Positions 16,041 through 62,640 of a stretch of 64,000 bases of DNA are shown piece after piece (within the stretch, counting starts at the first letter, position 1; every line of letters starts with the position of its first letter). A model generated the notes under the pieces. That model did no database searches. It was given only the letters and a program-made list of their open reading frames with translations, and had not been told where the DNA came from. The stretch is from Povalibacter uvarum (GTDB lineage Bacteria; Pseudomonadota; Gammaproteobacteria; Steroidobacterales; Steroidobacteraceae): the NCBI RefSeq assembly GCF_014202975.1, contig NZ_JACHHZ010000002.1, forward strand, positions 1,121,018-1,185,017, read 5' to 3'. A program made the translations under genes and the position numbers.

Positions 16041-16154
16041 AGAAGCGGTTAGCGGTTAGCGGTTGGCGGTTGGCGAGAAAAGACGCGCGCACGCGCGAAG
16101 GGCGGGCACTGCCCGCTTCTGACTAACCGCTAACCGCCAACCGCTAACCGCTTC
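16041..16154. repeat. Iterated-arm inverted element 1 (unit RGCGGTT)
   Basis: Left arm 16043-16077: AGCGGTT three times, then GGCGGTT and GGCGAGA. Right arm 16122-16154 is the inverted complement with the same unit. The centre has a perfect GCGGGCA-C-TGCCCGC hairpin. It fills the whole space between the argS stop codon and the SPOR start codon. Confidence 0.85.
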
Positions 16155-16159
16155 TTCCT

Positions 16160-17845
16160 TCACATCTTCTCCGGCGCCGACACACCCAGTAGTTTCAATC
16201 CGTTCTGAATGACCTGCCGTGTCGCCGCGACCAGGTTCAGCCGCGCGTTGCGCAGGTTCACGTCGTCGACGATGAACTGGTGGGCGTTGTAGTACGTGTG
16301 GAGGTCGCCGGCCAGATCGCGCAGATAGTGCGCGACCTGGTGCGGCTCGAGCGCGTTGGCTGCGTTCTCGAGCAGTTCGGGGAAATACGTCAGCCGGCGG
16401 ATCAAGGCTCTTTCCTGCGGTTCGGAAAGCAGCGCGATGTTGCGTTCGCCGATGTCGCGTTCGTGGGTGAAGCCCTTCTCTTGCAGTTGGCGGAAGACGC
16501 TGCACACACGGGCGTGGGCGTACTGCACGTAGTAGACCGGGTTCTCTTCGCTCTGCGCGAGCGCGAGATCGATGTCGAACACGAATTCCGAATCGGCCTT
16601 GCGCGATACGAGGAAGAAGCGCACGGCGTCGCGACCGACCCACTCGATGAGATCGCGCACGGTGACGTACGAGCCGGCGCGCTTGGAGATTTTCACTTCC
16701 TCGCCGCCGCGCATCACTTTGACCATCTTGTGCAGCACGTAGTCCGGATAGCCTTCCGGAATGCCGAGGCCGAGCGCCTGCAGGCCCGCGCGGACGCGCG
16801 AGATTGTGCCGTGATGGTCGGTGCCCTGGACGTTGATGGCCTTGCGGAATCCACGCTGCCACTTCGTGACGTGATACGCCACGTCGGGCACGAAGTAAGT
16901 GAACGTGCCGTCCGACTTGCGCATGACGCGGTCTTTGTCATCGCCGAACTCGGTCGTGCGCAGCCAGAGCGCGCCTTCGTTCTCGTAGGTCTTGCCGCTT
17001 CCGATCAGGCCCTTCACGGTTTCCTCGACCTTGCCGTCCGTGTAGAGGCTCGATTCGAGGTAGTACACGTCGAAGTGCACGCCGAACTTCTGCAGGTCGA
17101 TGTCCTGCTCGCGACGCAGATAGGCGACCGCGAACTTGCGGATCGACTCGAAATCGTCGGGCTTGCCGCTCGCCTTCACCGCCTCGCCGTCGAGCGCATG
17201 CACGGAACTCTTCGCGAGAAATTCCTCTGCGATATCACCGATGTAGTCGCCCGCGTATCCCTCCTCGGGCCAGCCTGCGTCGCCGGGCTTGATGCCGCGA
17301 GCGCGCGCCTGCACCGACAGGGCAAGCTTGTGAATCTGGACGCCGGCGTCGTTGTAGTAGAACTCACGGCTGACTTCGTAGCCCTGCGTCTGGAGCAGCG
17401 ACACGAGCGCGTCGCCGAGCGCCGCCTGACGTCCGTGACCGACGTGCAGTGGACCGGTCGGATTCGCGGAAACGAACTCGACGACGGTGCCGATGCCCGC
17501 ACCGCGTTTGCCGTAGCCGTACACCGGACCGAAATCGAAGACCCGCGACAGCTCGAGCTGGTATGCCGCCGCCGACAGATGAAAGTTGATGAACCCCGGC
17601 CCGGCGATCTCCGTCTTCGCGATCAGGTCGCTCGCAGGCAGCGCATCGAGAATGGCCTGTGCGAGCTGGCGGGGGTTCTTGCGTGCCGGCTTGGCAAGCT
17701 GCAGCGCGATGTTGGTGGCGAAATCGCCATGCGCGGCGTCGCGCGTGCGCTCGACGTTGATCTCCGGTCGGATATCCGCGGGGACGACGTCGGGCGGCAG
17801 GGTCGCAAGCGCGGCCTGCAGCAGTTGTTCGATCTGGTATTTCAC
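16160..17845 (-). CDS. argS: Arginyl-tRNA synthetase
   Basis: Charges tRNA(Arg); class I. The 561 residues carry the N-terminal additional domain (1-110), the HIGH-type motif in [20 protein letters not shown] (HVGH 134-137), the catalytic core ([26 protein letters not shown]), [12 protein letters not shown] at the KMSKS position, and a DALR anticodon-binding C-terminus ([16 protein letters not shown]). The start is GTG at 17845, encoding the canonical MKYQIEQLL-type N-terminus. It lies between priA and the SPOR gene, with an iterated-arm element on each side. Confidence 0.97.
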
Positions 17846-17887
17846 GGGAAGAGAATTGGTCAGCGGTCAGGCGGGCAGTCTAGCGGA

Positions 17888-17995
17888 GCAGCCGGCTAGC
17901 CAGCTAGCAACTAGCCGCTAGCCAGATCAGAGCCTCTCCTGCCGATCCTCATCGGGCTGGCCGGCTGCCTGCTAGCTGGCTAGCCGGCTGGCTCA
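17888..17995. repeat. Iterated-arm inverted element 2 (CTAGC type)
   Basis: Left arm ~17891-17928 has CTAGC at 7-8 bp spacing and ends in AGCCAGA; right arm ~17957-17995 is the inverted counterpart and reaches the priA stop codon. It lies between priA and argS. The inner end AGCCAGA is shared with elements 3, 5 and 8. Confidence 0.75.
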
Positions 17996-20212
17996 GAATA
18001 ATTCCGCCGGATCCACATCAATGGACCACCGCACCTTCCGGCCTTCCGGCAGCGATTCCAGTTCGAGGATCCAGCTGCTCAGCAGGCGCTGCAGCGGGGC
18101 GTGGGTCGGGGCATGGAGAAGCAATTGAGCACGGTGCCGGCCGGCGCGGCGTTCCATTGGCGCCGGAGCGGGGCCAAGCAGTTGTACGCCTTTCACCGCG
18201 TGCCGGTGTGCCGCTGCCAGCGCGGCTTGCAGAAATTTCAAAGGCTCGGCCCGATGCGAGGCTTCGGCACGCAGCAACGCGAGTCGCGAGTACGGCGGCC
18301 AATGAGCCTGCTGTCTTTCCGTCAGCGCTCCCGCGGCAAACGCGTCATAGCCTCCCCGCAGCAGCAGGCTCAGCAGCGGATGATCCGGGTACTCGGTCTG
18401 GATCAGCACTTCACCGGGTTGCTCGGCGCGCCCGGCCCGGCCGGCGACCTGGACGATCGTCTGCGCGAGGCGTTCGCTCGCGCGGAAGTCCGTGCTGAAA
18501 AGTCCCTGGTCGGCGTTCAGTACGACCACCAGCGTGACGTTAGGGAAATGGTGACCCTTCGTGAGCATCTGCGTGCCGACGAGGATGCGGATCTCGTTGC
18601 GATCGACCTGCGCGAGCGTCGCTTCGAGCTCGCCCTTGCGGCGCATGCTGTCGCGATCGATGCGTGCGAGCGGCACCTTGGGAAATATCGCTTCGAGCGT
18701 TTCCTCGATGCGCTCGGTTCCCTGGCCGACGGGCTTCACATCCGAAGAGCAGGTCGGGCAGCGCGTGATCATGTCCTGCTCCGCGCCGCAGTGATGGCAG
18801 AGCAGCGCCGATCGACGATGCACGGTCAGATTTGCGTCGCAACGCTGGCAGCGGGCCGCCCAGCCGCATGACGGACAGAACAGCACCGGCGCATAGCCGC
18901 GTCGATTCAGGAACAGCAGCACCTGGCGACCCGCGTCCAGGTGCCGGCGCATCGCAAGCAGCGTGGGCGTGGAAATTCCCTGCGATTCGCCGTGTTTGCG
19001 CAGGTCGACGAGCGTGAGCGTCGGCGGCTTCGCGTCGGCGGCGCGATGGGGCAGCGACAGCAGCGATCCCGCCTGACGCTGCGCACGTTCGAGGCTTTCG
19101 AGCGACGGTGTCGCCGAACCGAGGACGACGGGGATGCCATGACGCTGCCCGCGAACGATGGCGAGATCGCGCGCCGAGTAACGGAAGCCTTCCTGCTGTT
19201 TGAACGAGCTGTCGTGCTCTTCGTCGACGACGATGAGCCCCGGACGCGCGAGAGGTACGAAAACCGCCGAGCGTGTGCCGATGACGATTCGCGCTGTCCC
19301 GCTGCGTGCGTCGCGCCAGGCCGCGAGTCGTTCGCCGTCGCTCAATCCCGAATGCATGATCGCGAACGGCACATCGAAGCGTTCGCGAAACCGGGTGATC
19401 GATTGCGGTGTGAGTGCAATCTCCGGCACGAGCACGAGCGCCTGCTCGCCGCGCTCGAGAACCGTCGCGATGGCGTTGAGATAAACCTCTGTCTTGCCGC
19501 TGCCGGTAATTCCATGCAGCAGCCAGGTGACGAAGCTGCCGAGAGAACCGCGGATGCGATCGACGGCGGTCTGCTGAGCTTCGTTGAGTGCGGGGCTGCG
19601 CGAAGTTCCGAGGCCTTCGTTCGAAGCTGGCGGCGTTGTCTCGGCCGTGAAGTGCTCGACGTAGCCACGATCTTCGAGTTTTCGCAGCGACTCCCGGCTG
19701 ATGCCAGCCGCAACCAGGTCCTCGGCGCTGCGGTCGGCGACGTCGGTCAGGGCCTCGATTGCCGCTCGCATCTGACGCGCCCGCGCCGGGACCTTTTCCA
19801 ATCCCTGTTCCTTGCCGATGACTGTCAATCGCCAGCGTGTCTCTTCGACTGCGATCGGCGCTCCCTGGCGCAGCGCCGCCGGCAGCGCGGCCGCGATGAC
19901 TTCGCCCACCGGATGCCGGTAGTAGTCGGCCGACCACCGAAGCAGTTCGAGGAAGCCGGCATCGAAAGTCGGTTCGGCCTCCACTCGCTCGAAGGCGAAG
20001 CGGAGTTTGCCCTCGGGGACCGAGCTGCGATCCCGGCATTCAGTGACGACACCGACGACCCGGCGTTTGCCGAAGGGCACCCAGACCCGGTGGCCCGGTT
20101 GGACTTCACCCGCCCAGGCAGCAGGCGCCCGATAGTCGAAGACCCGGCGCAGCGGCGTATCGATCGCAACGACCAGGATCACGCGCGTTGCACCGGCCGC
20201 GGGGTTTTGCAC
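17993..20212 (-). CDS. priA: Primosomal replication protein N' (PriA helicase)
   Basis: Restarts collapsed forks by reloading the replisome. 739 residues: N-terminal 3'-DNA-binding domain (1-110), Walker A GITGSGKT (234-241), DEEH helicase box (VVDEEHDSSFKQQEGFRYSARD) and the zinc-binding cysteine cluster between the helicase lobes (LFCPSCGW, CQRCDANL, LLCHHCG, ITRCPTCSSD). The start is GTG at 20212; the exact start is uncertain by a few codons. A DnaA-box sequence lies 6 bp upstream of the start codon. Confidence 0.96.
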   Translation of the reverse strand: MQNPAAGATRVILVVAIDTPLRRVFDYRAPAAWAGEVQPGHRVWVPFGKRRVVGVVTECRDRSSVPEGKLRFAFERVEAEPTFDAGFLELLRWSADYYRHPVGEVIAAALPAALRQGAPIAVEETRWRLTVIGKEQGLEKVPARARQMRAAIEALTDVADRSAEDLVAAGISRESLRKLEDRGYVEHFTAETTPPASNEGLGTSRSPALNEAQQTAVDRIRGSLGSFVTWLLHGITGSGKTEVYLNAIATVLERGEQALVLVPEIALTPQSITRFRERFDVPFAIMHSGLSDGERLAAWRDARSGTARIVIGTRSAVFVPLARPGLIVVDEEHDSSFKQQEGFRYSARDLAIVRGQRHGIPVVLGSATPSLESLERAQRQAGSLLSLPHRAADAKPPTLTLVDLRKHGESQGISTPTLLAMRRHLDAGRQVLLFLNRRGYAPVLFCPSCGWAARCQRCDANLTVHRRSALLCHHCGAEQDMITRCPTCSSDVKPVGQGTERIEETLEAIFPKVPLARIDRDSMRRKGELEATLAQVDRNEIRILVGTQMLTKGHHFPNVTLVVVLNADQGLFSTDFRASERLAQTIVQVAGRAGRAEQPGEVLIQTEYPDHPLLSLLLRGGYDAFAAGALTERQQAHWPPYSRLALLRAEASHRAEPLKFLQAALAAAHRHAVKGVQLLGPAPAPMERRAGRHRAQLLLHAPTHAPLQRLLSSWILELESLPEGRKVRWSIDVDPAELF

Positions 20213-20604
20213 AAAAGCTGTGGATAAGTCTGTGCATTGATTGGGATCAAACGCTCCAAGTGGGCGTTTCGCGAGCAGCTTTCGATCCTGATCAATATTT
20301 CAGCGCCTTTCATTTTGCAAAGCCAAACAGCAACTTAGCGCTTGCGCAACGCCGCACGACGTGGCAGGGCAGACGGCGCCTTAACGCAACCGTCATGGTG
20401 TGGGCAACCAATGCTGTGCGGTCGGTGACAAGTCGATGATTCTACGGGAGGGGCTGCGAGCTGTGAGCTATGAGCTGTGAGCCAGAGGGGCCCGGGGATC
20501 GGCTCGGGTCCGGACTGTGGGTCCGGCTTTAGCCGGACGTCATCGCGCCAGCGAGCCTCGCTTCCTGTTCCGGCTCATCGCTCACCGCTCATCGCTCGTC
20601 CTGC
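20213..20604. other. 392-bp intergenic region between the pigment operon end and priA
   Basis: No gene seen. It contains a DnaA box at 20219-20227, an imperfect hairpin AAACGC...GCGTTT at 20249-20269, and iterated-arm element 3 (20458-20610) with a central hairpin. It serves as the priA upstream region and the 3' end of the minus-strand pigment operon. Confidence 0.6.
20219..20227 (-). promoter_or_regulatory. Perfect DnaA box (TTATCCACA) just upstream of priA
   Basis: TGTGGATAA on the plus strand is the complement of the consensus TTATNCACA. It is single, 6 bp before the priA start codon, and could let DnaA control priA; a chance match is possible. Confidence 0.4.
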
Positions 20605-20610
20605 TCATCC
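20458..20610. repeat. Iterated-arm inverted element 3 (unit GAGCNNN)
   Basis: Left arm 20458-20489: GAGCTGT, GAGCTAT, GAGCTGT, GAGCCAG. Right arm ~20571-20610 is the inverted array (GAGCGAT, GAGCGGT, GAGCGAT). In the centre is the perfect hairpin GTCCGGCT-TT-AGCCGGAC (20521-20538). The right arm contains the stop codon of the dehydratase-like gene ending at 20605. Confidence 0.85.
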
Positions 20611-21036
20611 CAATGCAATCGCCACCCGTCCCTGGCACAGCAGCCGGTCGCCGGCCCGGACCTCGAATTCGTAGAGCGACCCGCTCGCCTGAGACAGCTG
20701 CCTCCTGGCGGTGATCATCAGCGGCGTATCGAGTGTGTCGATGCGATCGATGAAGAGACGCAGGTCGCGCAGCGCCGCGAGCATGCCGGGACGAGCTGTG
20801 CCGGTGCCGACCAGGGCACCGTGGACGGCGGTTGCCTGCGCTGCATATTCCGCGAGATGCAGTGCGGCGAGTCGGCCGCCGTGTCTCAGCGGATGCGCAG
20901 CATCGCGATGGTTGTCGGCAACGCACACGATTCGATCGGACGCATGCGACAGGACGCGATCGAGCAGGCACATGCTGCCGGCGTGCGGCACTAGCTGCTC
21001 CAGCCGCTCGCGACCGATTTCGCTCTCGGTGCTCAC
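20605..21036 (-). CDS. ApeP-like hot-dog dehydratase, aryl polyene cluster
   Basis: 143 residues with ERLEQLVPHAGSMCLLDRVLSH and LAALHLAEYAAQATAVHG, the pattern of the ApeP family of thioester dehydratases that act beside FabZ-like ApeI on 3-hydroxyacyl-ACP during polyene elongation. The GTG start at 21036 overlaps the stop of the chain-length-factor gene (GTGA), which fixes the start. It is last in the minus-strand operon. A second protein of the same family is encoded at 34210. Its stop codon lies inside a repeat arm. Enzyme activity is inferred from family and context. Confidence 0.8.
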   Translation of the reverse strand: MSTESEIGRERLEQLVPHAGSMCLLDRVLSHASDRIVCVADNHRDAAHPLRHGGRLAALHLAEYAAQATAVHGALVGTGTARPGMLAALRDLRLFIDRIDTLDTPLMITARRQLSQASGSLYEFEVRAGDRLLCQGRVAIALG

Positions 21037-34692: not shown

Positions 34693-34717
34693 GGATCATG
34701 AAGATCAAGATGAGGAT

Positions 34718-34829
34718 TTCCACGGGGAACACGGGGTGCACGGGGACAAGAAATCCTTCCCGTGTCGATCACTCAGGTCTCGGTGAATCCAATTTCGCTT
34801 ACCCCGTGCTCCCCGTGTACCCCGTGGAG
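34718..34829. repeat. Iterated-arm inverted element 4 (9-bp unit CACGGGGNN)
   Basis: Left arm 34720-34747 reads CACGGGG three times at 9-bp period; right arm 34798-34827 is its inverted counterpart, also three units. It lies inside the plus-strand pigment operon between the ApeP-like gene and fabG and ends 12 bp from the fabG ATG. Confidence 0.85.
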
Positions 34830-34840
34830 ATTCTTCTCTG

Positions 34841-39534: not shown

Positions 39535-40973
39535 GCTCGCCCATGAATCTCCAGCCCCAACTCATCATCGACGCCAGCTACTTCGCCGCGGCGTTCCTGT
39601 TCATCTACGGCCTGAAGCGCATGTCGTCGCCGGTCACGGCGCGCTCCGGCATCGTCGTCGCGGGCGTCGGCATGCTCGTAGCGACACTCGCGAGTTTCCT
39701 GTACGTGTTCGGTGTCAATGAGGCTGCTCAGCCGCATCTCACGACCAACATCATCCTGGCGGCGACGGCGCTGGGTGTGGGCACGCTGTGGGCATGGTGG
39801 AGCGGCAAGCGCGTTGCAATGACGGCGATGCCGCAAATGGTCGCGCTCTACAACGGCATGGGCGGTGGCGCCGCAGCCGCAATCGCGGCCGTCGAGTTGC
39901 TGCGCACGAGCGCGACGCATACGACTATTCCGCTGATCGTGACCATCGTCGGCGCGCTGATCGGGTCCGTCTCGCTGTCCGGCTCGCTGATCGCCTGGGC
40001 GAAGCTCGACGGCAAGATCAACGGCACGTGGCGTGTCAAAGGCCAGCAGGTCATCAACGGCGCGCTGTTCCTGCTGACGCTGGGTCTCGGCCTTTTCATC
40101 GTCTTCGCCGAGCACGGCCACGCCTCGCCGCAGGTCGTTGCGGTGTTCTTCGGTCTCGCATTGATCTTCGGCGTGCTGATGACGATGCCGATCGGCGGCG
40201 CCGACATGCCGGTGGTCATCTCCCTGTACAACGCATTCACCGGTCTCGCCGTCGGGTTCGAAGGCTACGTGCTGCAGAACCCCGCGCTGATGATCGCGGG
40301 CATGGTCGTGGGCTCGGCGGGTACGCTGCTGACGCTCCTGATGGCGAAGGCCATGAATCGCAGCGTGTCGAATGTCATCTTCAGCAACTTCGGCGCGACG
40401 GGCGACGAGAGCCAAGGCGAGATCAAAGGCACGATGAAGGCCGCTGAAGCGGGCGACGCCGCGGTGAACATGCGCTACGCCTCGAAGGTCATCTTCGCGC
40501 CCGGCTACGGACTCGCAGTTGCGCAGGCGCAGCACAAGCTGTTCGAGTTCGTGAAGCTCCTGACCGATGCGGGTGTGGAAGTGAAGTTCGCCATTCACCC
40601 CGTCGCCGGCCGCATGCCGGGCCACATGAACGTGCTGCTCGCGGAAGCCGGCGTGCCGTACGACATGATCTACGACCTCGAAGACATCAACGAGGAGTTC
40701 AAGGAAGCGGATGTGGCCGTCGTCATCGGCGCGAACGACACGGTCAATCCCGCCGCCCGCACGAACAAGTCCTCGCCCATCTACGGCATGCCGATCCTGA
40801 ACGTCGACCAGGCCCGGCAGGTGTACGTCATCAAGCGCGGCCAGGGCAAAGGCTACTCAGGCGTCGAAAACGAGCTCTTCTTCGCCGATAACACCAGCAT
40901 GGTTTACGGGGACGCCCAGAAAGTGATGGTGGCGATGATTCAGGCGGTGAAGCAGTTGGAAGGCGGACACTGA
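39531..40973 (+). CDS. pntB: NAD(P) transhydrogenase subunit beta
   Basis: 480 residues: about nine membrane helices, then the NADP-binding domain III (GYGLAVAQAQHKLFEFVKLL, IHPVAGRMPGHMNVLLAEAGV, VVIGANDTVNP, RGQGKGYSGVENELFF). It supplies NADPH from NADH and the proton gradient. Its TGA stop is the first codon of a repeat arm. Confidence 0.97.
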   Translation: MSSPMNLQPQLIIDASYFAAAFLFIYGLKRMSSPVTARSGIVVAGVGMLVATLASFLYVFGVNEAAQPHLTTNIILAATALGVGTLWAWWSGKRVAMTAMPQMVALYNGMGGGAAAAIAAVELLRTSATHTTIPLIVTIVGALIGSVSLSGSLIAWAKLDGKINGTWRVKGQQVINGALFLLTLGLGLFIVFAEHGHASPQVVAVFFGLALIFGVLMTMPIGGADMPVVISLYNAFTGLAVGFEGYVLQNPALMIAGMVVGSAGTLLTLLMAKAMNRSVSNVIFSNFGATGDESQGEIKGTMKAAEAGDAAVNMRYASKVIFAPGYGLAVAQAQHKLFEFVKLLTDAGVEVKFAIHPVAGRMPGHMNVLLAEAGVPYDMIYDLEDINEEFKEADVAVVIGANDTVNPAARTNKSSPIYGMPILNVDQARQVYVIKRGQGKGYSGVENELFFADNTSMVYGDAQKVMVAMIQAVKQLEGGH

Positions 40974-41090
40974 GCGGCGAGCGATGAGCGGTGAGCGATG
41001 AGCCAGAGGGCTTCGGCGCCGCCTCGATTGCTCTTTATCCGAATCCTCCCTTTCCGGCTCACAGCTCGTAGCTCGTCGCTCGTAGCCCCG
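40972..41090. repeat. Iterated-arm inverted element 5 (unit GAGCNNN)
   Basis: Left arm 40972-41010: GAGCGGC, GAGCGAT, GAGCGGT, GAGCGAT, GAGCCAG, starting at the pntB stop. Right arm 41054-41088 is the inverted array (GAGCGAC, GAGCTAC, GAGCTGT, GAGCCGG). The rest of the gap to 41253 shows no further structure. Confidence 0.87.
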
Positions 41091-41253
41091 CCTCGGCCGG
41101 GATTCCGTCTCTTCTTCCCCACACCTCCGGGATTCCCTTTTCCGCTGAAATACTTGCCCCGTTGAATATCTACACACCCCTCGCGTATCTTAGGTCGCGA
41201 GTCGCTACTCAAGGCCGTGCCAAAGTAGGGCCGGTCGTACTGATTCTTAAGTC

Positions 41254-41868
41254 GTGCAGCAACCGTACAACTTGAATCAAGAGATCCTGCGGACCGACGT
41301 ATCGGGCATGCCCCTGGAATGGATCGATTACAGGGACGCCGTGCGGCTTTACCATACGGAGCAGGTGGCCTACACCTGTGGGACACAGCTCTACACGCTG
41401 TATGGCGGCACCAATGCGAAGTCGGGGCTGCAGACCGCGGTCGAAGTGAATTCGATCATTGCGACCATCGGCCACACGCACAATCCCGGCAACCTGCGCC
41501 AGGACTACACGCCGCCGCTGAACAACCAGACCCTGTTCAAGCGCGATGCGCATCTGTGCCTGTACTGCGGCCAGCGATTCCCTTCCAACCAGCTTTCCCG
41601 CGATCACGTCCGGCCCCTGAGCCAGGGCGGGCGCGACAAGTGGACGAACGTCGTCACGGCGTGCCGGCGCTGCAACAATCTCAAGGCATCGAAGACGCCC
41701 GAGCAGGCCGGTCTGCAGCTCATCGCGGTGCCGTTCACGCCGACCTACGCCGAGTACATCTATCTCAAGAGCCGTCGCGTGCTGGCCGACCAGATGGAAT
41801 ACCTGCTCGCGCATTTCCCCCGCTCGAGCCCGCTGCATGCGCGTTTGAAGGCACACGGAATCCAGTAA
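41254..41868 (+). CDS. HNH endonuclease family protein
   Basis: 204 residues from GTG 41254 (QQPYNLNQEILRTDVSGMPLEW). HNH fold: zinc cysteines Cys102/Cys105 (CLYCG) and Cys137/Cys140 (CRRC), catalytic Asp117-His118 (SRDHVRPLSQGG) and Asn132 (WTNVVTAC). The long N-terminal part (IDYRDAVRLYHTEQVAY, IEVNSIIAT-like VEVNSIIATIG) is typical of a chromosomal single-domain family common in Gammaproteobacteria. No methylase, toxin or phage genes lie nearby. Repeat elements flank it on both sides. Target unknown. Confidence 0.9.
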   Translation: MQQPYNLNQEILRTDVSGMPLEWIDYRDAVRLYHTEQVAYTCGTQLYTLYGGTNAKSGLQTAVEVNSIIATIGHTHNPGNLRQDYTPPLNNQTLFKRDAHLCLYCGQRFPSNQLSRDHVRPLSQGGRDKWTNVVTACRRCNNLKASKTPEQAGLQLIAVPFTPTYAEYIYLKSRRVLADQMEYLLAHFPRSSPLHARLKAHGIQ

Positions 41869-42066
41869 GAAGAAGCGGTTGGCGGTTGGCGGTTAGCGGA
41901 TGGCGAGAGGAACCTCGCTGTCACGGCTCGAGCTTCGCCGTAGTTTCCGGTCGTGCTCCAGCCGGAAATGGCCGAGAATGCAGCGACCCTGATGTCGATT
42001 TCGGGATCGGTTCCGAATTAAGCACTAGTCGCCAACCGCCAACCGCCAACCGCCAACCGCTTCTTC
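41869..42066. repeat. Iterated-arm inverted element 6 (unit RGCGGTT)
   Basis: Left arm 41873-41908 begins right after the HNH stop codon: AGCGGTT, GGCGGTT, GGCGGTT, AGCGGAT, GGCGAGA. Right arm 42029-42066 is the inverted array of five units. The centre has a TTTCCGG...CCGGAAA inverted repeat (41944-41969). It ends 3 bp before the exonuclease ATG. Confidence 0.87.
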
Positions 42067-42069
42067 TTC

Positions 42070-48508: not shown

Positions 48509-48805
48509 ATGCACTACTTGCTTCTCTACGATTTCGCACCCGACTACCTGGAGCGTCGCGTGCAGTTCCGCGCTGAGCATCTGCGCGGCGCGTGGGCTTC
48601 CGTTGAGCGCGGCGAACTGATTCTCGGCGGCGCATTGGCCGATCCGGTCGACGGCGGGATGCTGCTGTTCAAATGCGATTCGCCGGAAATTCCCGAAGGA
48701 TTCGCCAAGGAAGATCCCTACGTGAAGAGTGGAATCGTGACGCGCTGGCGGGTGCGGCGCTGGACGACGGTGGTGGGTCAGGACGCCGACACGCCGGTGA
48801 GATGA
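48509..48805 (+). CDS. YciI-like protein
   Basis: 98 residues from ATG 48509 (GAGGAGAGAG upstream). Typical YciI fold: MHYLLLYDFAPDYLERRVQFRAEHL, with the conserved Asp-His pair expected (D8, H24), and GELILGGALADPVDGGMLLF, PYVKSGIVTRWRVRRW. Related to dimeric alpha-beta barrel enzymes; exact role unknown. Cotranscription with pyrF is likely. Its TGA runs into a heptamer array. Confidence 0.9.
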   Translation: MHYLLLYDFAPDYLERRVQFRAEHLRGAWASVERGELILGGALADPVDGGMLLFKCDSPEIPEGFAKEDPYVKSGIVTRWRVRRWTTVVGQDADTPVR

Positions 48806-48850
48806 GAGAGAAGCGGATAGCGGATAGCGGATAGCGGATAGCGGATGGTG
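48806..48850. repeat. Iterated-arm element 7, single arm (unit AGCGGAT x5)
   Basis: Starts right after the YciI stop codon with GAGAGAAGCGG and has five AGCGGAT units, the last changed to GGTGACC. No inverted partner arm follows; a 67-bp palindromic element of the other family sits next to it instead. Confidence 0.8.
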
Positions 48851-48859: not shown

Positions 48860-48926
48860 GTCATCCCCGCGCACGCGGGGATCCATCCCGTAGACAAAGA
48901 TGGATTCCCGCCTGCGCGGGAATGAC
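48860..48926. repeat. 67-bp palindromic element (GTCATCCCCGCG...CGCGGGAATGAC)
   Basis: Long terminal inverted repeats: GTCATCCCCGCGCACGCGGG then ATCCATC, mirrored by GATGGATTCCCG and CTGCGCGGGAATGAC. It lies between the convergent YciI and DUF4097 genes. The best preserved copy of the family in this window. Confidence 0.85.
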
Positions 48927-48932: not shown

Positions 48933-49760
48933 CTACCGCTCCGCCACCTGCACCGTTCCCACCACCCGCGAATGACGCACGCTGCCGCTGCTGTCGGCGC
49001 CGACAGAGAAGTTGCCGCCGACGTCTTCGACGTTGATGTCGCCGGAGCTGTCGACGTCCACGCGCACATCGCGGTTGACGTTGCGAACAAAGATCTCGCC
49101 GGACGTGTCGTTGCGGATGTGCACGCTGCCAACCTGCACGATGCGGATGTCGCCGGAGCTGTCGATCGGAATGACGACGTCGCCCTTTACGCCTTCCACG
49201 TGGATATCGCCGGAGCTGTCAGAGAGCTTGAGGTTGCCCGCGACCTGTTCGATCTCGATATCGCCCGAGCTGTCCGTGACTTCGAGATCGCCCTGGATGT
49301 CTTCGATCTCCATTTCGCCGGAGCTGTCGGCGACGATCGCTGACCTCACTTTGTGCAGTTCCAGGTCGCCGCTCGAATCTTCGAGCTCGATCGGAATCGA
49401 ATCGGGCAACGCGATCACGAGATCCATCGTGGCGTAGGTCGAGCCGAACCAGCTGCCATCCTTCATCTCCGGCATCAGGGTCTTCAGGTAGACGGTCTCG
49501 CCGTCGCGACGGGTCTCGAGCTGGATCTTGCCGAGCAGCTCTTCGTTCGAAGCACACGCCTCGCCCTTCGCCTCCACCTTGCTGCGCCCGGATTCGCCCC
49601 GGACCTTGAGATCGCCGGCACCGGTGCCGATCACGACGCGCCTGGCACCCGTCGTGTCGATGCTGGCCGAGCGGTCGGCTTTGTGTTTGCACCAGTCGTC
49701 CGCTTGCGCGACTGAAGTCAGGCTCAGGCCGGCCACGAGAATGGGCAGCAATCTGTTCAT
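48933..49760 (-). CDS. DUF4097 exported beta-strand repeat protein
   Basis: 275 residues: signal peptide MNRLLPILVAGLSLTSVAQA, then from about residue 125 eight tandem repeats of 17-19 residues each opening DSSGD or a variant (DSSGE, DTSGE, DSSGS) with alternating hydrophobics, which predicts a right-handed beta-solenoid. DUF4097 proteins of this kind are periplasmic or surface proteins of unknown function. It faces YciI convergently. Confidence 0.88.
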   Translation of the reverse strand: MNRLLPILVAGLSLTSVAQADDWCKHKADRSASIDTTGARRVVIGTGAGDLKVRGESGRSKVEAKGEACASNEELLGKIQLETRRDGETVYLKTLMPEMKDGSWFGSTYATMDLVIALPDSIPIELEDSSGDLELHKVRSAIVADSSGEMEIEDIQGDLEVTDSSGDIEIEQVAGNLKLSDSSGDIHVEGVKGDVVIPIDSSGDIRIVQVGSVHIRNDTSGEIFVRNVNRDVRVDVDSSGDINVEDVGGNFSVGADSSGSVRHSRVVGTVQVAER

Positions 49761-49837
49761 GAGGAGGTCCTTTCTTGGTCGAGGGGTCCAGGTTTTGGTT
49801 TGGATGCGGGAAAGGGGGCAAAGGTTGCGAGGAGGCA

Positions 49838-49990
49838 GCCAGCTAGCGACTAGCCAGATTCAGGAAGTCATAGGAGTCGGCGGCCCCGGCTTCTGCTGTG
49901 GGTCCGGCTTCAGCCGGACGTCATGCGAAGCATCCGTCTCCAGGCCTCGCAAGCGGCCTCTGGCTAATGGCTAGCCGGCTAGCCGGCTCC
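49838..49990. repeat. Iterated-arm inverted element 8 (CTAGC type)
   Basis: Left arm 49838-49860 (CAGCTAGCGACTAGCCAGA), right arm 49957-49990 inverted, reaching into the coding end of the next gene: its TAG stop and last residues (LAG) are written by the arm. The centre has a perfect GTCCGGCT-TC-AGCCGGAC hairpin (49902-49919), nearly identical to that of element 3. Confidence 0.8.
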
Positions 49991-57138: not shown

Positions 57139-57140
57139 GA

Positions 57141-58226
57141 TCAGCGGCCCGCGCCGCCACGCACCGCGCGCGCTTTGCTCTGCGGATCCGCGACTTCCGA
57201 CACCGGCCAGCCTTGCGCATGACGCAGGGTGAGGTCGGCGAGCAGCTGAACGTGGGCCGGCGTGGCGTTCAATGCAGGAATGTAGTCGTACGCTTCGCCG
57301 CCGTTCTCCAGGAAGGGCGCGCGATTGCGAATCTCGATTTCTTCGAGGGTTTCGAGGCAGTCCGTCGCGAAGCCGGGGCACACCACGCTGATGCGCTTCG
57401 GACCTTCTTTCGCGTACCGCAGCAAGAGCTCGTCGGTGTAGGGGCGCAGCCATTCCTCCCGGCCGACCTGCGATTGGAAACTCACGCTCCAGTCGCCTTC
57501 GGCGAGGCCGAGACGCTCGCTGACCAATCGAGCCGTCTTCAGGCACTGGCAGTGATAGGGATCGCCTGCGAGCAGGTAGCTGCGAGGCACGCCATGGAAT
57601 GAGAACAGCAAGTGCTTGCGCCCGTGCGTCTGCCAATGCGCCTGAATGCTTGCGGCGAGGGCGGCGATGTATGCGCCGTCATCGTGGTACTGGGTGATGA
57701 ACCGGAATTCGGGCAGCCAGCGAAAGCGCTGCAGTGTCCGGGTGACGCGGTCGAAGACGGACGCTGTCGTCGTGCCCGAGTACTGGGGATAGAGCGGCAG
57801 CACGATGAGACGGCGAACTCCTTCGCGATGCATTCGTTCGAGCGTTCCGGGAATGTCGGGCGAGCCGTAGCTCATGCCGAGGCCGACGACGACTCTTCCC
57901 TGTCCCAGCCGTTCGGTGAGTTCCTTCTCGAGACCTACGGCGAGCGCCTTGGTGTGCAGCAGAAGGGGAGAGCCCTGCGGGGTCCAGATTTGCTGGTACG
58001 CGTGCGCGCTCTTGCTCGGTCGAATACGCAGGATCACGCCGTGGAGGATCAGCCACCAGAGCCAGCGGGGTGATTCGATGACGCGGGCGTCCCAGAGGAA
58101 CTCCGCGAGAAAGCGCCGCACGTCGCCAGGGCTGGGAGAGTCGGGCGTGCCCAGATTGACCAGCAGGACGCCGGTACGGGGCGCGGAGGCGTGGTCGAAG
58201 TCTGACAGGCCGAGGTAATCGGGCAT
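57141..58226 (-). CDS. hemH: Ferrochelatase
   Basis: Inserts iron into protoporphyrin IX. 361 residues: GVLLVNLGTPDSPSPGDVRRFLAEFLWD, GLGMSYGSPDIPGTLERM, LPLYPQYSGTTTASVFD, catalytic His211 in FSFHGVPRSYL, GDPYHCQCLKTARLV, SFQSQVGREEWLRPYT and CPGFATDCLETLEEI. The start is the first ATG giving the family N-terminus. Together with hemF (1438) it covers two late steps of the same pathway. Confidence 0.97.
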   Translation of the reverse strand: MPDYLGLSDFDHASAPRTGVLLVNLGTPDSPSPGDVRRFLAEFLWDARVIESPRWLWWLILHGVILRIRPSKSAHAYQQIWTPQGSPLLLHTKALAVGLEKELTERLGQGRVVVGLGMSYGSPDIPGTLERMHREGVRRLIVLPLYPQYSGTTTASVFDRVTRTLQRFRWLPEFRFITQYHDDGAYIAALAASIQAHWQTHGRKHLLFSFHGVPRSYLLAGDPYHCQCLKTARLVSERLGLAEGDWSVSFQSQVGREEWLRPYTDELLLRYAKEGPKRISVVCPGFATDCLETLEEIEIRNRAPFLENGGEAYDYIPALNATPAHVQLLADLTLRHAQGWPVSEVADPQSKARAVRGGAGR

Positions 58227-58292
58227 GAGGAACGCGGTCGTGGTCGAGGCGCCGTAGTCTGGCGTAACGGCTCCCGCAAGTCATGACCGCCC

Positions 58293-58324
58293 AAAAAAAC
58301 GAACCCCGCACTAGGCGGGGTTCG
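58293..58324 (-). terminator. Strong rho-independent terminator downstream of the PEP-CTERM gene
   Basis: On the minus strand CGAACCCCGC-loop-GCGGGGTTCG (58300-58324) is followed by seven T residues (58293-58299). It separates the PEP-CTERM gene from the hemH operon. The best intrinsic terminator in the window. Confidence 0.93.
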
Positions 58325-58349
58325 TGGGGAGCTTTGAGAAGCTTCTGGC

Positions 58350-58892
58350 TTACTTGGCGGCCTTCCGGCGGCGGGCGGTCAGGCCCACGCCGAGGAGTCC
58401 GAGACCGAGCAGCGCCAGCGTTGCGGGTTCCGGAACGGCTGCTGCTGCAGCGTAGCCGTTGGCAACCAGGCTCGAGCCGCCGAAGATGAAGTCGCCGAAC
58501 ACGGAGGTGATGGTCACGCTCAGTGTGCCGAAGGCGTTCAGTTCGAGCAGGCCGGCAATCGACCAGCCCTGGTAGGCGTCGTTGCCGAAGTTGAAGACGA
58601 CGCGGTCGCCGAGCACGCCCGGGATGTCGACGAAGGCGGCTTCGAGGTCGTACCACTTGTCAGCGGCATCGTCATACAGGTCGATGCTCAGCAGGAAGTC
58701 CGTGACCACATCCGTGCCGACGCGGAAGCCGTCGAGCGTGATGTCGTGCGAGTAGTCCAGCGACTTGCCGGCGGTGAGCGTCTGTCCACCCGCCACGCTG
58801 CTGTCCCAGGTAGCCGGGATGTAGGACGCGTTGGCGACGCCGGAGAACCCTACGACGGCGGCCAGTGCGATGAGAATCTTCTGAAGGGACAT
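58350..58892 (-). CDS. PEP-CTERM sorting domain protein
   Basis: 180 residues from ATG 58892 (GGGAG upstream). Signal peptide MSLQKILIALAAVVGFSGVANA, a beta-rich body (GKSLDYSHDITLDGFRVGTDVVTDF, VVFNFGNDAYQGWSIAGLLELNAFG), and the PEP-CTERM tail at 153-180: VPEP motif, hydrophobic helix (LALLGLGLLGVGLT) and a RRRK cluster. It should be processed by an exosortase and exported to the envelope or matrix; no exosortase is in the window. Closed by a strong terminator and led by an own promoter: a one-gene unit. Confidence 0.93.
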   Translation of the reverse strand: MSLQKILIALAAVVGFSGVANASYIPATWDSSVAGGQTLTAGKSLDYSHDITLDGFRVGTDVVTDFLLSIDLYDDAADKWYDLEAAFVDIPGVLGDRVVFNFGNDAYQGWSIAGLLELNAFGTLSVTITSVFGDFIFGGSSLVANGYAAAAAVPEPATLALLGLGLLGVGLTARRRKAAK

Positions 58893-58983
58893 GTTTCGTT
58901 GCTCCCCAAGGCCAGACAAGAACAGGAAAAAGGGCGTTGGCTTTGTTGTCCTGTAAGAGTGCAACGAGCGTGCCGTTCCTGGA

Positions 58984-59011
58984 ATTATCTTTAAATTCAT
59001 AAGCTTGAAAA
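58984..59011 (-). promoter_or_regulatory. Putative sigma-70 promoter of the PEP-CTERM gene
   Basis: On the minus strand TTTTCA (complement of 59006-59011), 16-bp spacer, GATAAT (complement of 58984-58989). The segment is strikingly AT-rich in a GC-rich surrounding. Start codon ~92 bp downstream. Confidence 0.5.
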
Positions 59012-59181
59012 AATCGCATGACGTTCGTAGTCGGACGGCTGTAATGACCCCCGACAGGCGACATAACACACCAAAGGCACTTCCACACCGGGTCGATGAA
59101 AGGTCAGTGAGGGAGTTTTCCGGCCTTTGTCGCTTTACTCAGTAGGACACGCGTGCGGTGACATGGACCACCTCACAAGGA

Positions 59182-59196
59182 CCCGAATGGTTCGGG
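59182..59196. promoter_or_regulatory. Perfect hairpin CCCGAA-TGG-TTCGGG
   Basis: Six-base arms around TGG in the long region upstream of the PEP-CTERM gene, ~290 bp from its start. An operator or structural element; nothing else supports a specific role. Confidence 0.3.
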
Positions 59197-59419
59197 GCAT
59201 GCAAACGGGCAGGGATGCCCTTCAGATTTTTCAGGTGCCAGCCGGCCGAGCCCACGATTCGCTACTGCCCCCCTCCCCGGGATCGTGATGCTCTGTCGGA
59301 CGGCATGTTGCCTTCACCCCAATGCTGTGGGGTTCGGGCAGCTGCCTGGGACGGCGGTCGGTTGTGACGGATGCGCTACCGCCCAAGCGTTTCCCGGCAC
59401 TTCCGGCCGCCTCCGCTTT

Positions 59420-59455
59420 AGGAGAAGCGGTTGCCGGTTAGCGGTTGGCGGTTAG
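59420..59455. repeat. Iterated-arm element 9, single arm (unit RGCGGTT)
   Basis: AGAAGCGGTT, GCCGGTT, AGCGGTT, GGCGGTT, AG at 7-bp period; 27 bp past the thiolase stop codon. No second arm seen within 300 bp. Confidence 0.75.
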
Positions 59456-59482
59456 TTCAGAAACGGAACATTAACCCGGTCG

Positions 59483-60760
59483 CTACCGCTCCAGGATTGC
59501 TGTTACGCCCATGCCGCCGGCGGTGCAGATCGAGATCAGACCGCGGCCCTTTCCTCGTTGAGCCAATAATTTTGCCAGTGTTGCCACGATTCGCGCGCCC
59601 GTCGCTGCGAAGGGATGGCCGATCGCCACGCTGCCGCCCTTCAGATTCATCTTGCTGCGGTCGATCGGGCCCAGCGGCTCGCTGAGGCCCAGCCGCTCGC
59701 GGCAGAACTGCGGCGATTCCCACGCCTTCAGCGTACAGAGCACCTGCGCTTCGAAAGCCTCGTGGATTTCATACACATCGAAGTCCTGCAGGCGCAGGCC
59801 CGCGTCGCTGAGCATGCGCGGCACCGCGTACGCGGGCGCCATCAGCAATCCTTCCTTGTTGACGAAATCGACGGCAGCGACCTTGCCGTACGTGAGATAC
59901 GCGAGCACTGGCAGGCCGCGGCTGCGCGCCCAGTCTTCGCTGGCGAGAAGCACTGCCGAAGCGCCGTCCGTCATCGGTGTCGAATTGCCGGCGGTCAAAG
60001 TGCCGGTCGCATCGAACGAGGGCTTGAGCTTCGCGAGCTTTTCGATCGACGTGTCGCGACGCACGTTGTTGTCGCGCTTCAGTCCGGCGAACTCGACGAT
60101 CAGGTCATCGTAAAACCCTTCGTCGTACGCAGCTGCAGCCTTGAGATGACTGTGCAGTGCGAGCTGGTCCTGCTCTTCGCGCGAGATCTGCCAAGTCTTC
60201 GCCATCTGTTCGCAACTCTGTCCCATCGACAAACCCGTGCGCGGCTCGCTCACGCCCGGCAATTGCGGTTTGAAGTGTTTCGGACGCACGCCGAACCAGG
60301 GCCCGATGCGTTCGCCGAGACTTCTTCCGCGGGCGCTCGCGAGCAGCAGCTTGCGATAAGAATCCGGATAGACGATCGGCACATCGCTCGCGGTATCGAC
60401 GCCGGCCGCGATCGCGGAATCGATCTGGCCCGCGGCGATCTTGAGTCCCAGGATGATCGCCGTCTCGAGGCTCGTGCCGCACGCGCGCTGCAGGTCGAAT
60501 GCGGGTGTTTCCGGAGCGAGGCCGCTGCCCAGCACGGCCTCACGCGTGAGATTGAAATCGCGCGAATGCTTGAGCACCGCGCCTGCGCCGACATCGCCGA
60601 GCGTCTCGCCTTTGAGCTGATAACGATCGACCACTCCGCGCAATGCTGCTGTCAGCATGTCCTGGTTGCTGGCCTGTGCGTACGCGCCCATCGAGCGGGC
60701 GAAGGGGATGCGCATGCCGCCGATGATGGCGACCCGTCGAGGGGAAGATCCGACAATCAT
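59483..60760 (-). CDS. Acetyl-CoA C-acyltransferase (thiolase, FadI-like)
   Basis: 425 residues. Thiolase triad: nucleophile Cys94 (QRACGTSLET), HEAFEAQ, GHPFAATG with His382, and Cys412 in CTAGGMG. Length and start (RRVAIIGGMRIPFARS) resemble FadI-type enzymes of fatty-acid beta-oxidation that act with a FadJ partner; no such partner is next to it. Starts at ATG 60760. It cleaves 3-ketoacyl-CoA or condenses acetyl-CoA. Confidence 0.93.
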   Translation of the reverse strand: MIVGSSPRRVAIIGGMRIPFARSMGAYAQASNQDMLTAALRGVVDRYQLKGETLGDVGAGAVLKHSRDFNLTREAVLGSGLAPETPAFDLQRACGTSLETAIILGLKIAAGQIDSAIAAGVDTASDVPIVYPDSYRKLLLASARGRSLGERIGPWFGVRPKHFKPQLPGVSEPRTGLSMGQSCEQMAKTWQISREEQDQLALHSHLKAAAAYDEGFYDDLIVEFAGLKRDNNVRRDTSIEKLAKLKPSFDATGTLTAGNSTPMTDGASAVLLASEDWARSRGLPVLAYLTYGKVAAVDFVNKEGLLMAPAYAVPRMLSDAGLRLQDFDVYEIHEAFEAQVLCTLKAWESPQFCRERLGLSEPLGPIDRSKMNLKGGSVAIGHPFAATGARIVATLAKLLAQRGKGRGLISICTAGGMGVTAILER

Positions 60761-60827
60761 GCGAGCCTCGCTATGAGAGAATCGGCGGGCTGAGAAGAAT
60801 GCCGCGCCGTTTTGGCCGGGTCAAAGC

Positions 60828-62219
60828 TTGATCCCGATGTCTACCCCTCCCACTCGCGCGCAGATCGTTGCGGACGCCGCTTCCATCGCGCGTCTGGGCG
60901 GTCCGTTGCTCATCAACAATCTTGCCGCGGCGGGTATGTCGTTCACCGACACGGTCATGGCCGGACAGCTCGGCGCGCGGGATCTTGCTGGTCTTGCCAT
61001 CGGCGCTGCCTGGTACAACCTGTTCCTCTTCATCGGAATGGGTCTCTTCATGGCCGTCTCGCCTGCAGTCGCGCATGCGTACGGCGCAGAGGATCCGCGT
61101 CGCGTCACTCGCTACATGAGGCAATCCTGGTGGCTCGCGTTGGTGACAGCCTGCGTGCTGGTCGCGGGCATGTGGCAAGCGCGCTGGTTCCTGCCGATGA
61201 TCGGCATCACCCCGGACATTCTGCCGGTCGCAATCGGGTATGCAGAAGCCATCAGCTGGGGATTGCCAGGGATGCTCGCGTTCTTTTCGCTGCGGTATGT
61301 CAGCGAGGGCATCGGGCACACGCGGCCCATCATGTTCATCGCAAGTGCCGCGCTCGTCTTCAACGTGTTCGCAAACTGGGTTTTCATGTACGGGAAATTC
61401 GGGATGCCCAAACTCGGAGCGGTCGGCTGCGGAGTCGCATCCGCGATTGCGATGTGGCTGATGTTTGGCGCCATGTGCTGGTACGTGAAGTGGCAGAAGC
61501 TGTACCGACCGTACGCGTTCTTCGATCGGATCGATCGGCCGGAGCTGCGAACGCTCGGCGAACTTCTGCGCCTCGGCGTCCCGATCTCCGGCAGCATCCT
61601 CGCCGAGGGCGGCCTGTTCGTGGCTGCGGCGTTGTTGATGGGCTCGATGGGGGCAGTGACGGCGAGCGCGCATCAGATCGCACTCAACTACGCGAGCTTC
61701 ATGTTCATGATCCCGCTGGCGATCAGTTCTGCCACGACCATCCATGTAGGGCACACGATCGGGCGCGGCGAGATTGCTCATGCCCGCAGCGCTGGATTCA
61801 CGGGAATCGGCATGTGTTCCATCGTGATGGCGATCTCCGCCTGCTTCATGGTGCTGTTGAACGACCAGATCGCGTCGCTCTATACGCGCGATGTGGTCGT
61901 GCGCGATCTGGCCGCCACGCTTTTGCTGGCTGCTGCCGTGTTCCAGATTTCCGACGGCGTGCAAGTGGGGGCTGCAGGCGCGCTGCGAGGATTCAAGGAC
62001 ACCGCGATTCCCATGGCGCTTTGCTGGTTCTCCTACTGGGCCGTGGGATTTTCGCTCGCGTACGTGATGGGTGTCGTGCGCGGGGGCGGGCCTGTGCTGG
62101 TCTGGGCTGGTCTGATCGCCGGGCTCGCCGTATGTTCGGTGTTGCTGGTCACGCGCTACACGAGCATCACGAAATCACGCGTCCGCGCGGCGACGGATCA
62201 CTCGTCATTTGTGCGATAG
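60828..62219 (+). CDS. MATE family multidrug efflux pump
   Basis: 463 residues with twelve predicted helices (NLAAAGMSFTDTVMAGQLGARDLAGLAIG at helices 1-2, GSILAEGGLFVAAALLMGSMG at helix 7, GAAGALRGFKDTAIPMALCWFSYWAVGFSLAY near the end). Two MatE halves. It probably exports drugs or toxic metabolites by Na+/H+ antiport. The last codons overlap the 3' end of the convergent DUF2845 gene by 22 bp. Confidence 0.94.
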   Translation: MIPMSTPPTRAQIVADAASIARLGGPLLINNLAAAGMSFTDTVMAGQLGARDLAGLAIGAAWYNLFLFIGMGLFMAVSPAVAHAYGAEDPRRVTRYMRQSWWLALVTACVLVAGMWQARWFLPMIGITPDILPVAIGYAEAISWGLPGMLAFFSLRYVSEGIGHTRPIMFIASAALVFNVFANWVFMYGKFGMPKLGAVGCGVASAIAMWLMFGAMCWYVKWQKLYRPYAFFDRIDRPELRTLGELLRLGVPISGSILAEGGLFVAAALLMGSMGAVTASAHQIALNYASFMFMIPLAISSATTIHVGHTIGRGEIAHARSAGFTGIGMCSIVMAISACFMVLLNDQIASLYTRDVVVRDLAATLLLAAAVFQISDGVQVGAAGALRGFKDTAIPMALCWFSYWAVGFSLAYVMGVVRGGGPVLVWAGLIAGLAVCSVLLVTRYTSITKSRVRAATDHSSFVR

Positions 62220-62539
62220 CCGTAGCCGAGCGTCTCGATTTCTTCGACGAGGCCGTCGACGAACCGCACGCGCCGCATCAATTTGTACGGCCCGAAGTTG
62301 TACGTCCAGACTTCGACCGGCACTTCGACCATCGCATCGCCGTAGTAATAGTAGCGGCCGTTGAGGAAGTACGAAGGCCGACGCAGGATCGAACGCGACT
62401 GCACATCGCTGGGTTCACCGCAGAGATCGCGCACCGCGCTGATCGTGTCGCCATCGCTGATCAGGCGGCTGCCGCAGCGCATCGCATCGGCGAAGGCCGA
62501 TGGGCTGATGAGCAGTGCAAGGACGATCAGAGTACGCAT
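62198..62539 (-). CDS. DUF2845 domain-containing exported protein
   Basis: 113 residues from ATG 62539. Signal peptide MRTLIVLALLISPSAFA, then the DUF2845 body (MRCGSRLISDGDTISAVRDLCGEPSDVQSR, VEVWTYNFGPYKLMRRVRFVDG) with two cysteines likely to pair. Function unknown. It overlaps the convergent MATE gene by 22 bp at its 3' end. Confidence 0.85.
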   Translation of the reverse strand: MRTLIVLALLISPSAFADAMRCGSRLISDGDTISAVRDLCGEPSDVQSRSILRRPSYFLNGRYYYYGDAMVEVPVEVWTYNFGPYKLMRRVRFVDGLVEEIETLGYGYRTNDE

Positions 62540-62608
62540 GAACGGGATCGTGTGACTGCCGTGATGAACGAAAGATGAAGGCAAACCGATCAGTTCTGCC
62601 CAGCCAAT

Positions 62609-62640
62609 TGGCCTCGCGCCTCAGGCCTCGAGCCTCCCCC
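62609..62640. repeat. Iterated-arm element 10, single arm (unit GCCTCNN)
   Basis: GCCTCGC, GCCTCAG, GCCTCGA, GCCTCCC at exactly 7-bp period, straddling the stop codon of the alcohol dehydrogenase (minus strand, TGA at 62621-62623). On the minus strand the unit reads GAGGCNN, close to the GAGCNNN type. Confidence 0.65.

Follow-up and report, generated by a model that had tools for sequence, protein, structure and literature searches.

Intervening sequences (IVSs) of the 23S rRNA gene have been described in Coxiella, where the IVS comprises AGAAGA, tandem GACAGAT heptamers, an S23p open reading frame (ORF) and 28-bp terminal inverted repeats, and is termed a selfish element (PMC4990558). Tandem heptamers are also known from Xanthomonas and Nostoc (GGGAATC and GGGGA(C/T)T; Rehm 2015, PMC4692102), for which a G-quadruplex has been proposed; they form convergent inverted pairs (70 and 75 cases), lie close behind stop codons and are few between divergent genes, and in Xanthomonas transcripts start or stop more often at these repeats. 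We compared both systems with short periodic repeats lying between the genes of Povalibacter uvarum, in a stretch of 64,000 nucleotides (contig NZ_JACHHZ010000002.1, positions 1,121,018 to 1,185,017; hereafter the window). The initial annotation of the window had listed ten such sites, and all ten carry arrays: seven elements consist of two inverted arms, each an array of a short degenerate unit, and three sites show one recognisable arm.

The window arrays are probably non-coding members of a widespread group of IVS-like small insertion elements, mostly intergenic, whose coding members carry an S23 gene. An element of this group would consist of a purine-rich outer end, about 3–5 degenerate units of 7–9 bp and a CAGAA-like inner end, followed by a loop and the same parts in mirror image; the single loop gene of the coding members would specify the S23/IVP four-helix-bundle protein (PF05635), and the 23S rRNA IVS would be the same kind of element inside an rRNA gene. 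The likeness to the Coxiella IVS lies in the purine-rich end, the tandem heptamers, the terminal inverted repeats and the S23p ORF in the loop. Long-stem terminal inverted repeats are present in the window elements and so are heptameric arm repeats, but the period is 9 bp in the element at 34708 and 8 bp in the CTAGC elements. Furthermore, IVSs are known from 23S rRNA genes, whereas the window elements lie between protein genes, are mostly non-coding and occur many times per genome with many unit types. None of their loops holds an S23p/IVP gene or is long enough for one. We therefore file them as IVS-like and not as 23S IVSs; elements with an S23p gene in the loop do occur elsewhere, two of them in the P. 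uvarum genome (6.32 Mb). The argS gene of the window places this genome near Steroidobacter, matching a Steroidobacter MAG at 88% and S. agaridevorans at 81%.

The Xanthomonas and Nostoc repeats share with the elements studied here the tandem 7-nt unit, the convergent inverted pairs and the position within 50 nt of a stop codon. They differ in having single G-rich units and no described S23 link, whereas here many units are found, mostly without G runs. The initial annotation knew of no named repeat class with this architecture; this has to be qualified, since the architecture is in print for GGGAATC (PMC4692102) and for the Coxiella IVS (PMC4990558). Multicopy intergenic tandem heptamers also occur in Geobacter metallireducens, with 49 sites of four GGGACCG-type units and, as a further class, paired sites that hold five MTYCTGA units, but there they are read as regulatory or as IHF/HU-binding, and the available portion of that paper states no S23 link (PMC2700814). 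The REPIN/RAYT system (PMC3116915) resembles the present one in its short, scattered hairpins, which presumably rely on a single protein whose gene lies at another place; it differs in using repetitive extragenic palindromic (REP) sequences and a RAYT transposase instead of periodic units and S23. Finally, PF05635 is said to resemble Avd of the diversity-generating retroelements (4DWL versus 2GSC; PMC10053308), although at the present elements we saw neither a reverse transcriptase nor a template or a variable repeat, and none was sought. In the open-licence papers searched we found none linking S23/PF05635 to heptamer arms outside rRNA; the component observations are known one by one, and the link between them appears new to that literature.

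The connection to S23 was examined at S23 loci of P. uvarum and of other genomes (G-numbers) and in sampled loci or stretches (L-numbers). In G011, element L287 encloses an ORF matching PF05635, the 23S rRNA-intervening-sequence protein, at 1.6e-33. Counting an inverted repeat score of at least 14 as a match, inverted repeats flank the gene at 74 of the 86 S23 loci tested, and in 69 of the 86 both arms have the same 7–9-bp period. The repeat is present at 12 of 19 loci of the genus sample, at 24 of 29 of the class sample (29 new loci out of 40 PF05635 rows), at all 30 loci of the family of G423 (the best-scoring 30 of 65 rows) and at 8 of 8 plasmid loci, from six cyanobacteria, Azospirillum and Gemmatirosa. 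The plasmid loci are 8 of 32 records, selected to cover a range of taxa without sight of their flanks; the identification of their S23 genes is based on tblastn similarity, in 6 of the 8 also on annotation, and in none on the PF05635 model. In G013, two neighbouring PF05635 rows were merged into L303. When the interval was shifted by 800 or 1100 nt at the same loci, an inverted repeat was obtained in 44 of 324 cases and the same period in 1 of 324. Random intervals of beta- and gammaproteobacterial loci gave 96/600 and 0/600, and 400 random intervals of the P. uvarum genome reached score 14 in 8.5% of cases, with a maximum of 17.

The two PF05635 genes of P. uvarum (L294, L306) and all four of G012 have arms of unit types that are also found as empty elements in the same genome. 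Between genomes the units of the S23 arms differ widely, and they are alike only among close S23 relatives, which share on average 6.3 of 7 unit positions at a similarity above 0.85 (background about 3.4); over the 42 of 67 loci that could be used, the others having no usable array or a stop codon in the frame used, unit sharing increases with S23 similarity (rho 0.20, p 0.026). In the family of G423, many S23 arms consist of GGGAATC, GGGATTC or GGGAATG and thus belong to the type described by Rehm et al., from which we take this family to be probably that of Xanthomonas. A scan of the genes in the P. uvarum, G002 and G012 samples flagged 10 of 1622. Apart from the S23 gene L118:5557-5937, all of these are genes for which at least one arm comes from a complete element of the neighbouring gap, as matched by eye. 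In a Pseudanabaena plasmid, an S23 gene with TTAGCTT-type period-7 arms (L385:1513-1872) lies between annotated cas6 and cas4 genes.

Several observations weigh against this assignment. Twelve of the 86 S23 loci lack such a repeat; these include the only S23 gene of the element-rich G002 and the S23 genes of G001, G008 and G010. The misses are L298, L300, L301, L302, L307, L310 and L311 in the genus sample, L310 being cut by a contig end and having a 10-bp match of a heptamer array, and L316, L334, L338 (score 13, period 7), L340 and L341 in the class sample, where L334, too short for the shifted-interval test, was entered as a miss. The loci of the family of G423 may be orthologues rather than independent cases, and those tested there are the 30 with the highest scores out of 65. 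The GAGCKRY, GCGGTT and CACGGRG families of P. uvarum have no S23 partner in their own genome, so that not every family has an evident autonomous partner. Neither a transposase nor a reverse transcriptase came to light, no search having been aimed at them, and no clear target-site duplication is seen: one insertion in G011 (L279) is compatible with duplication of ATG, while another (L278) replaces 13–14 nt. Lastly, within the sampled stretches only 6 of 40 loops in P. uvarum and 10 of 64 in G012 have any match, mostly REP-like repeats or arrays, so that these loops appear not to be homologous, unlike those of ordinary miniature inverted-repeat transposable elements (MITEs).

Some of these observations would also be expected if another process made the hairpins and the S23 gene were a passenger that inserts into their loops or is captured by them. 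Most elements are empty, several families lack an S23 partner in the same genome, and loops also house REP-like palindromes and nested elements. We regard this possibility as rather unlikely: nearly all tested S23 loci, those of other phyla included, lie in such loops, which would be unexpected if the gene had other landing sites, and close S23 relatives have units in common.

The number of arrays far exceeds chance. In the window and 40 grid stretches (864 kb), gaps between the genes of a home-made gene caller, extended by 30 nt on each side and scanned at a score threshold of 11, contain 72 lag-7 arrays versus 0.8 in the mean of 20 dinucleotide shuffles. An equal frequency of arrays in shuffled sequence, which would have spoken against the family described by the initial annotation, is thus not seen; the family proves real and genome-wide. 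The corresponding counts are 19 versus 0.6 at lag 9, 11 versus 0.3 at lag 8, 8 versus 0.5 at lag 12, 2 versus 0.6 at lag 6 and 1 versus 0.6 at lag 5. Inverted repeats with arrays in their arms, sought in gaps of 20 to 800 bp, number 61 in 721 gaps (1.264 Mb) of P. uvarum versus 0, 0 and 3 in three shuffles; G012 has 88 in 251 gaps and G002 38 in 268, with 0, 0 and 0 in the shuffles of each, densities that are biased upward because most of these stretches come from contigs already known to carry arrays. The period is 7 in 39, 8 in 8 and 9 in 14 of the P. uvarum elements, which corrects the initial annotation, where a 7-bp unit with a single 9-bp case had been described. Different elements use different units, as had been proposed: RGCGGWT, GAGCKRY, YGAGGCN, GGCKRCW, AGCCNGCT and CACGGRGNN are among those of P. 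uvarum, and GTGACNR, AGTCYGY, GTTGACN, GSGATAG, TAGGGGG and the 8–9-bp GTGATGNN among those of G012. Many arms, judged by eye and uncounted, have a purine-rich GAAG-like stretch outside and a CAGAA-like stretch inside. An inner hairpin, earlier described as frequent, is confined to a part of the elements.

In 174 of 187 elements the 5' arm is the G-rich one, and G runs occur in CACGGGG and TAGGGGG, as would suit G-quadruplex repeats of the kind proposed for Xanthomonas and Nostoc. This explanation has hardly any likelihood as a general one. RGCGGWT, GAGCKRY, GGCKRCW, GTTGACN and AGTCYGY keep the architecture without a GGG run, which is likewise absent from the RGCGGTT, GAGCKRY and CTAGC units of the window, and around some S23 genes the arms are rich in C or in A and T (L318, L330, L333).

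Placement is bound to gene ends. In co-directional gaps the median distance from stop codon to element is 6 nt in P. uvarum, 4.5 nt in G012 and 29 nt in G002; in convergent gaps 13/16, 15/18 and 12/16 elements, respectively, have a stop codon no more than 30 nt away at both ends, and divergent gaps are poor in elements (p 0.004, 0.001 and 0.07). This distribution, the strong predicted folds of window elements (z -3.25 to -10.8) and the Xanthomonas transcripts that start or stop more often at such repeats (PMC4692102) could be explained by hairpins made by the host, selected behind stop codons as terminators or protectors of mRNA ends, with the S23 genes being incidental. We consider this improbable, because an element is inserted between argS and ftsN, which overlap in relatives, because a wobble preference on the sense strand is absent (see below) and because the enclosure of S23 by such arms and the species-specific units would be left unexplained. 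According to the insertion-element reading, elements would arrive as whole units and the survivors would be those sitting between a stop codon and the next gene; the gene-end placement would then follow from purifying selection, which purges insertions within genes while a transcribed hairpin is tolerated.

Comparison with relatives, as the initial annotation had suggested, reveals gain and loss as well as different units in the same gap. Exact patterns were counted in P. uvarum and 59 relatives. GAGCKRY was found 105 times in P. uvarum, once in G002 and in none of the other 58; CACGGRG 111 times in P. uvarum, 255 in G002, 9 in G004 and in none of the other 57; RGCGGWT 141 times in P. uvarum, 93 in G012, 32 in G011, 7 each in G006 and G007, 2 in G003 and once in G002. 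The priA-argS gap holds CTAGC units in P. uvarum, GGCTACA in G002 and TAGGGGG in G012, with both arms concordant, and measures 36 bp without an array in three other relatives. Between argS and ftsN, P. uvarum has RGCGGTT and G012 GSGATAG; the element is absent from G002 and three distant relatives (L036, L079 and L084), where the genes overlap or abut, and the gap is 65–117 bp without an array in G003, G010 and G011. Where two RGCGGTT elements sit in G011, relatives have 0–5 nt (L279; G001, G003 and G010) or 13–14 nt (L278; G001 and G003). Terminal inverted repeats and arrival as a unit are features shared with MITEs. A 68-base stretch across the L279 loop occurs just once in G011 and is not found in G001, G003 or G010; the loop search returned only two matches, of 18 and 24 nt, with E near 0.8. 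In the sampled stretches of G002, 10 of 15 loops have a match and these are real copies, the loops of the CACGGGG family being homologous and present in both orientations.

The initial annotation held that the two arms of one element always use the same unit type and that this needs arm-to-arm pairing, gene conversion or compensatory change. The first part is nearly true: partner arms score far higher than arms of different elements (means of 23.2 versus 4.0 in P. uvarum, 22.1 versus 3.9 in G012 and 28.1 versus 6.5 in G002), where equal scores would have refuted the initial annotation, an advantage inflated by the delimitation of arms through pairing. Six mixed-arm elements were recognised by eye in the part of the elements inspected (L228:4980 in P. 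uvarum; L247:879, L251:8382, L254:6574 and L256:10858 in G012; L262:11896 in G002), and strongly mixed ones would be missed because the detector needs complementarity. The second part is mostly unsupported. When only the array was used to define the arms, the two arms have their type-level variants (TT/AT in GCGGWT, A/G in CACGGRG) in common in every register. The free positions, however, show no covariation in the inner register of GAGCNNN (57/132 = 0.43 versus 0.52 permuted), GTGACNN (46/82 = 0.56 versus 0.62), AGTCNNN (31/60 = 0.52 versus 0.53) or the G002 CACGGRGNN arrays (70/177 = 0.40 versus 0.42), nor a clear excess in any register tested. An exception is GGCNNCN in G002, whose arms agree (43/66 = 0.65 versus 0.45, p 0.01; six elements, two sub-types). 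At the R of RGCGGWT a weak register-free excess is seen in P. uvarum (0.592 versus 0.493, p 0.012) and none in G012, and CACGGRGNN of P. uvarum has a near-significant one (0.370 versus 0.332, p 0.07). On the sense strand of co-directional elements G.U is not preferred over A.C (142 versus 151, p 0.64). Two young insertions in G011 already have an A/G order that differs between the arms, and in one of them the unit numbers differ too. The missing covariation and the equality of G.U and A.C speak against arm copying or selection for RNA pairing as general makers of the arms. Gene conversion, quasipalindrome correction or compensatory change between arms, to which the shared type-level variants and the GGCNNCN arms would conform, is therefore given very little weight.

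Within arrays, adjacent units are less alike than random in GAGC, CACGGAG and GAGGC of P. uvarum, CACGGGG of G002 and GTGATG of G012, contrary to what would be expected of heptamer microsatellites grown by polymerase slippage, a hypothesis quoted in PMC4692102. They are more alike in GTGAC of G012 (0.756 versus 0.621) and GGCNNCN of G002, and some arrays are long and perfect, such as L146:10473-10571 and 48812-48846 of the window, so that slippage may lengthen some arrays. Nevertheless, it does not produce arms in inverted pairs and does not place one unit at some 50 or more sites of a genome; it is insufficient alone and is very improbable as the origin of the elements. In GCGG arrays the likeness of adjacent units is 0.83 versus 0.64, an excess that includes the TT and AT types. 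A test for founder copies gave a same-register signal in GAGCNNN, which we tentatively ascribe to the constant terminal GAGCCAGA, a small one in CACGGRGNN of G002 and P. uvarum, and none of note in other families. Free positions within the unit are in equilibrium in GAGC of P. uvarum only, and linked in AGTC, GTGAC, CACGGAG and GCGG. Two further ideas were abandoned: a 7-bp period derived from stop codons in all frames, as several units hold none, and adenine mutagenesis like that of diversity-generating retroelements as the source of the degeneracy, which does not fit RGCGGTT.

Under the insertion-element reading, the unit would be set by the element family, and it is this, not continued copying of one arm by the other, that would give both arms the same unit type. 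Common membership of the window elements and the rRNA IVSs would make the latter one niche of a broad class of hairpin insertions, which is the simplest reading. The hairpins may be tolerated through RNase III-type cutting, by analogy with rRNA IVSs, for which alone it is published, and mobility may be helped by IVP acting in trans. A role of S23 in mobility is suggested by the resemblance of PF05635 to Avd (PMC10053308) and by the match of the P. uvarum IVP to 2gsc, the sequence of the solved Xcc0516 structure, at 2.5e-24. A more speculative version, which we consider doubtful, is a mobile hairpin class with the S23/Avd-like bundle as its only protein and with arms written anew at the target and not copied from a donor. 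Repeats of the degenerate family unit would be added at both ends, perhaps through an activity of the reverse-transcriptase type that the S23 pentamer recruits, as Avd serves its retroelement enzyme; arms of shared type with independent free positions, non-homologous loops and a recent insertion without donor would follow from it. Insertion elements of this kind would tie together three puzzles, namely the excess of heptamers in bacteria, the GGGAATC arrays of Xanthomonas and the 23S IVS with an S23 of unknown function. If the proposal is true, S23 proteins would belong to a class of mobile elements that we encountered in Proteobacteria, Cyanobacteria and Gemmatimonadota and that occupies 88 of 251 sampled gaps in one species (a biased sample), and the origin of rRNA IVSs and the function of S23 would become testable.

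The seven two-armed elements of the window, given here without strand, are recovered as follows. At 16041..16155, between the stop codon of argS (16160) and the start of an ftsN-like gene (16036), the unit is RGCGGTT (RNA fold z -10.8). The element at 17889..17990, between the priA stop and the argS start, has CTAGC / AGCCNGCT with a period of 8 (z -6.98), and that at 20457..20598 GAGCKRY (z -4.37). A 9-bp unit, CACGGGGNN, characterizes 34708..34839 (z -7.86), which ends 1 nt ahead of the next start codon. At 40962..41098 the unit is again GAGCKRY (z -3.25), the arrays proper occupying 40972-41003 and 41057-41086 and containing the stop codon of a pntB-like gene; G012 carries RGCGGTT in this gap. 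The RGCGGTT element at 41867..42068, with a loop of 122 nt, spans stop to start, in a gap that holds AGTCYGY in G012 and overlapping predicted genes in G010 and G003. The last, at 49837..49980, uses CTAGC / AGCCNGCT. On the insertion-element reading, the strong folds of the five elements with a z value would follow from the arms. Single arms, also without strand, lie at 48799..48846 (AGCGGAT in five perfect copies, with an inverted palindrome pair behind them), 59426..59455 (RGCGGTT, with a CAGAA-like inner end) and 62611..62636 (C-rich, with the unit GCCTCGN, which is YGAGGCN reversed, and spanning the stop codon of a gene that ends at 62621). In each of these gaps the best inverted repeat is unrelated to the arm. 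Rfam and tRNA scans of the window gave no match and no rRNA.

Other beta- and gammaproteobacteria also contain period-7 inverted elements without an S23 gene, each with a unit of its own (L041:18227, L061:14493, L079:1837, L098:19453, L104:12446). Concentric elements occur in G002 (L202:4368-4613, L258:15146-15364, L265:6520-6760, L270:8964-9139), where outer CACGGAG arms enclose a complete CACGGGG, CACAGAG or CGCAAAAAG element within their loop. At L146:10473-10571, a long array of 13 AGCGGAT units in one arm stands opposite five in the other, likely a slippage expansion. TAAGGGN, a reversed control pattern for arrays, matches 30 times in G142 and 23 times in G095, both of which have S23 genes; these genomes therefore have a heptamer family of their own. 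The REP-like palindrome TGTGGGTCCGGCTT(T/C)AGCCGGACGTCAT lies inside the loops of two window elements, at 20515-20543 and 49896-49924, and similar copies are found elsewhere in the P. uvarum sample. Paired palindromes of the type GTCATCCCCGCG...GCGGGGAT, resembling the dRS3-like repeats of Neisseria, occur at 48860-48926 and within 15381-15472, with many copies in the same sample. Finally, a 54-bp tandem repeat of 2.3 copies (49203-49328) lies within a predicted minus-strand gene at 48933-49760.

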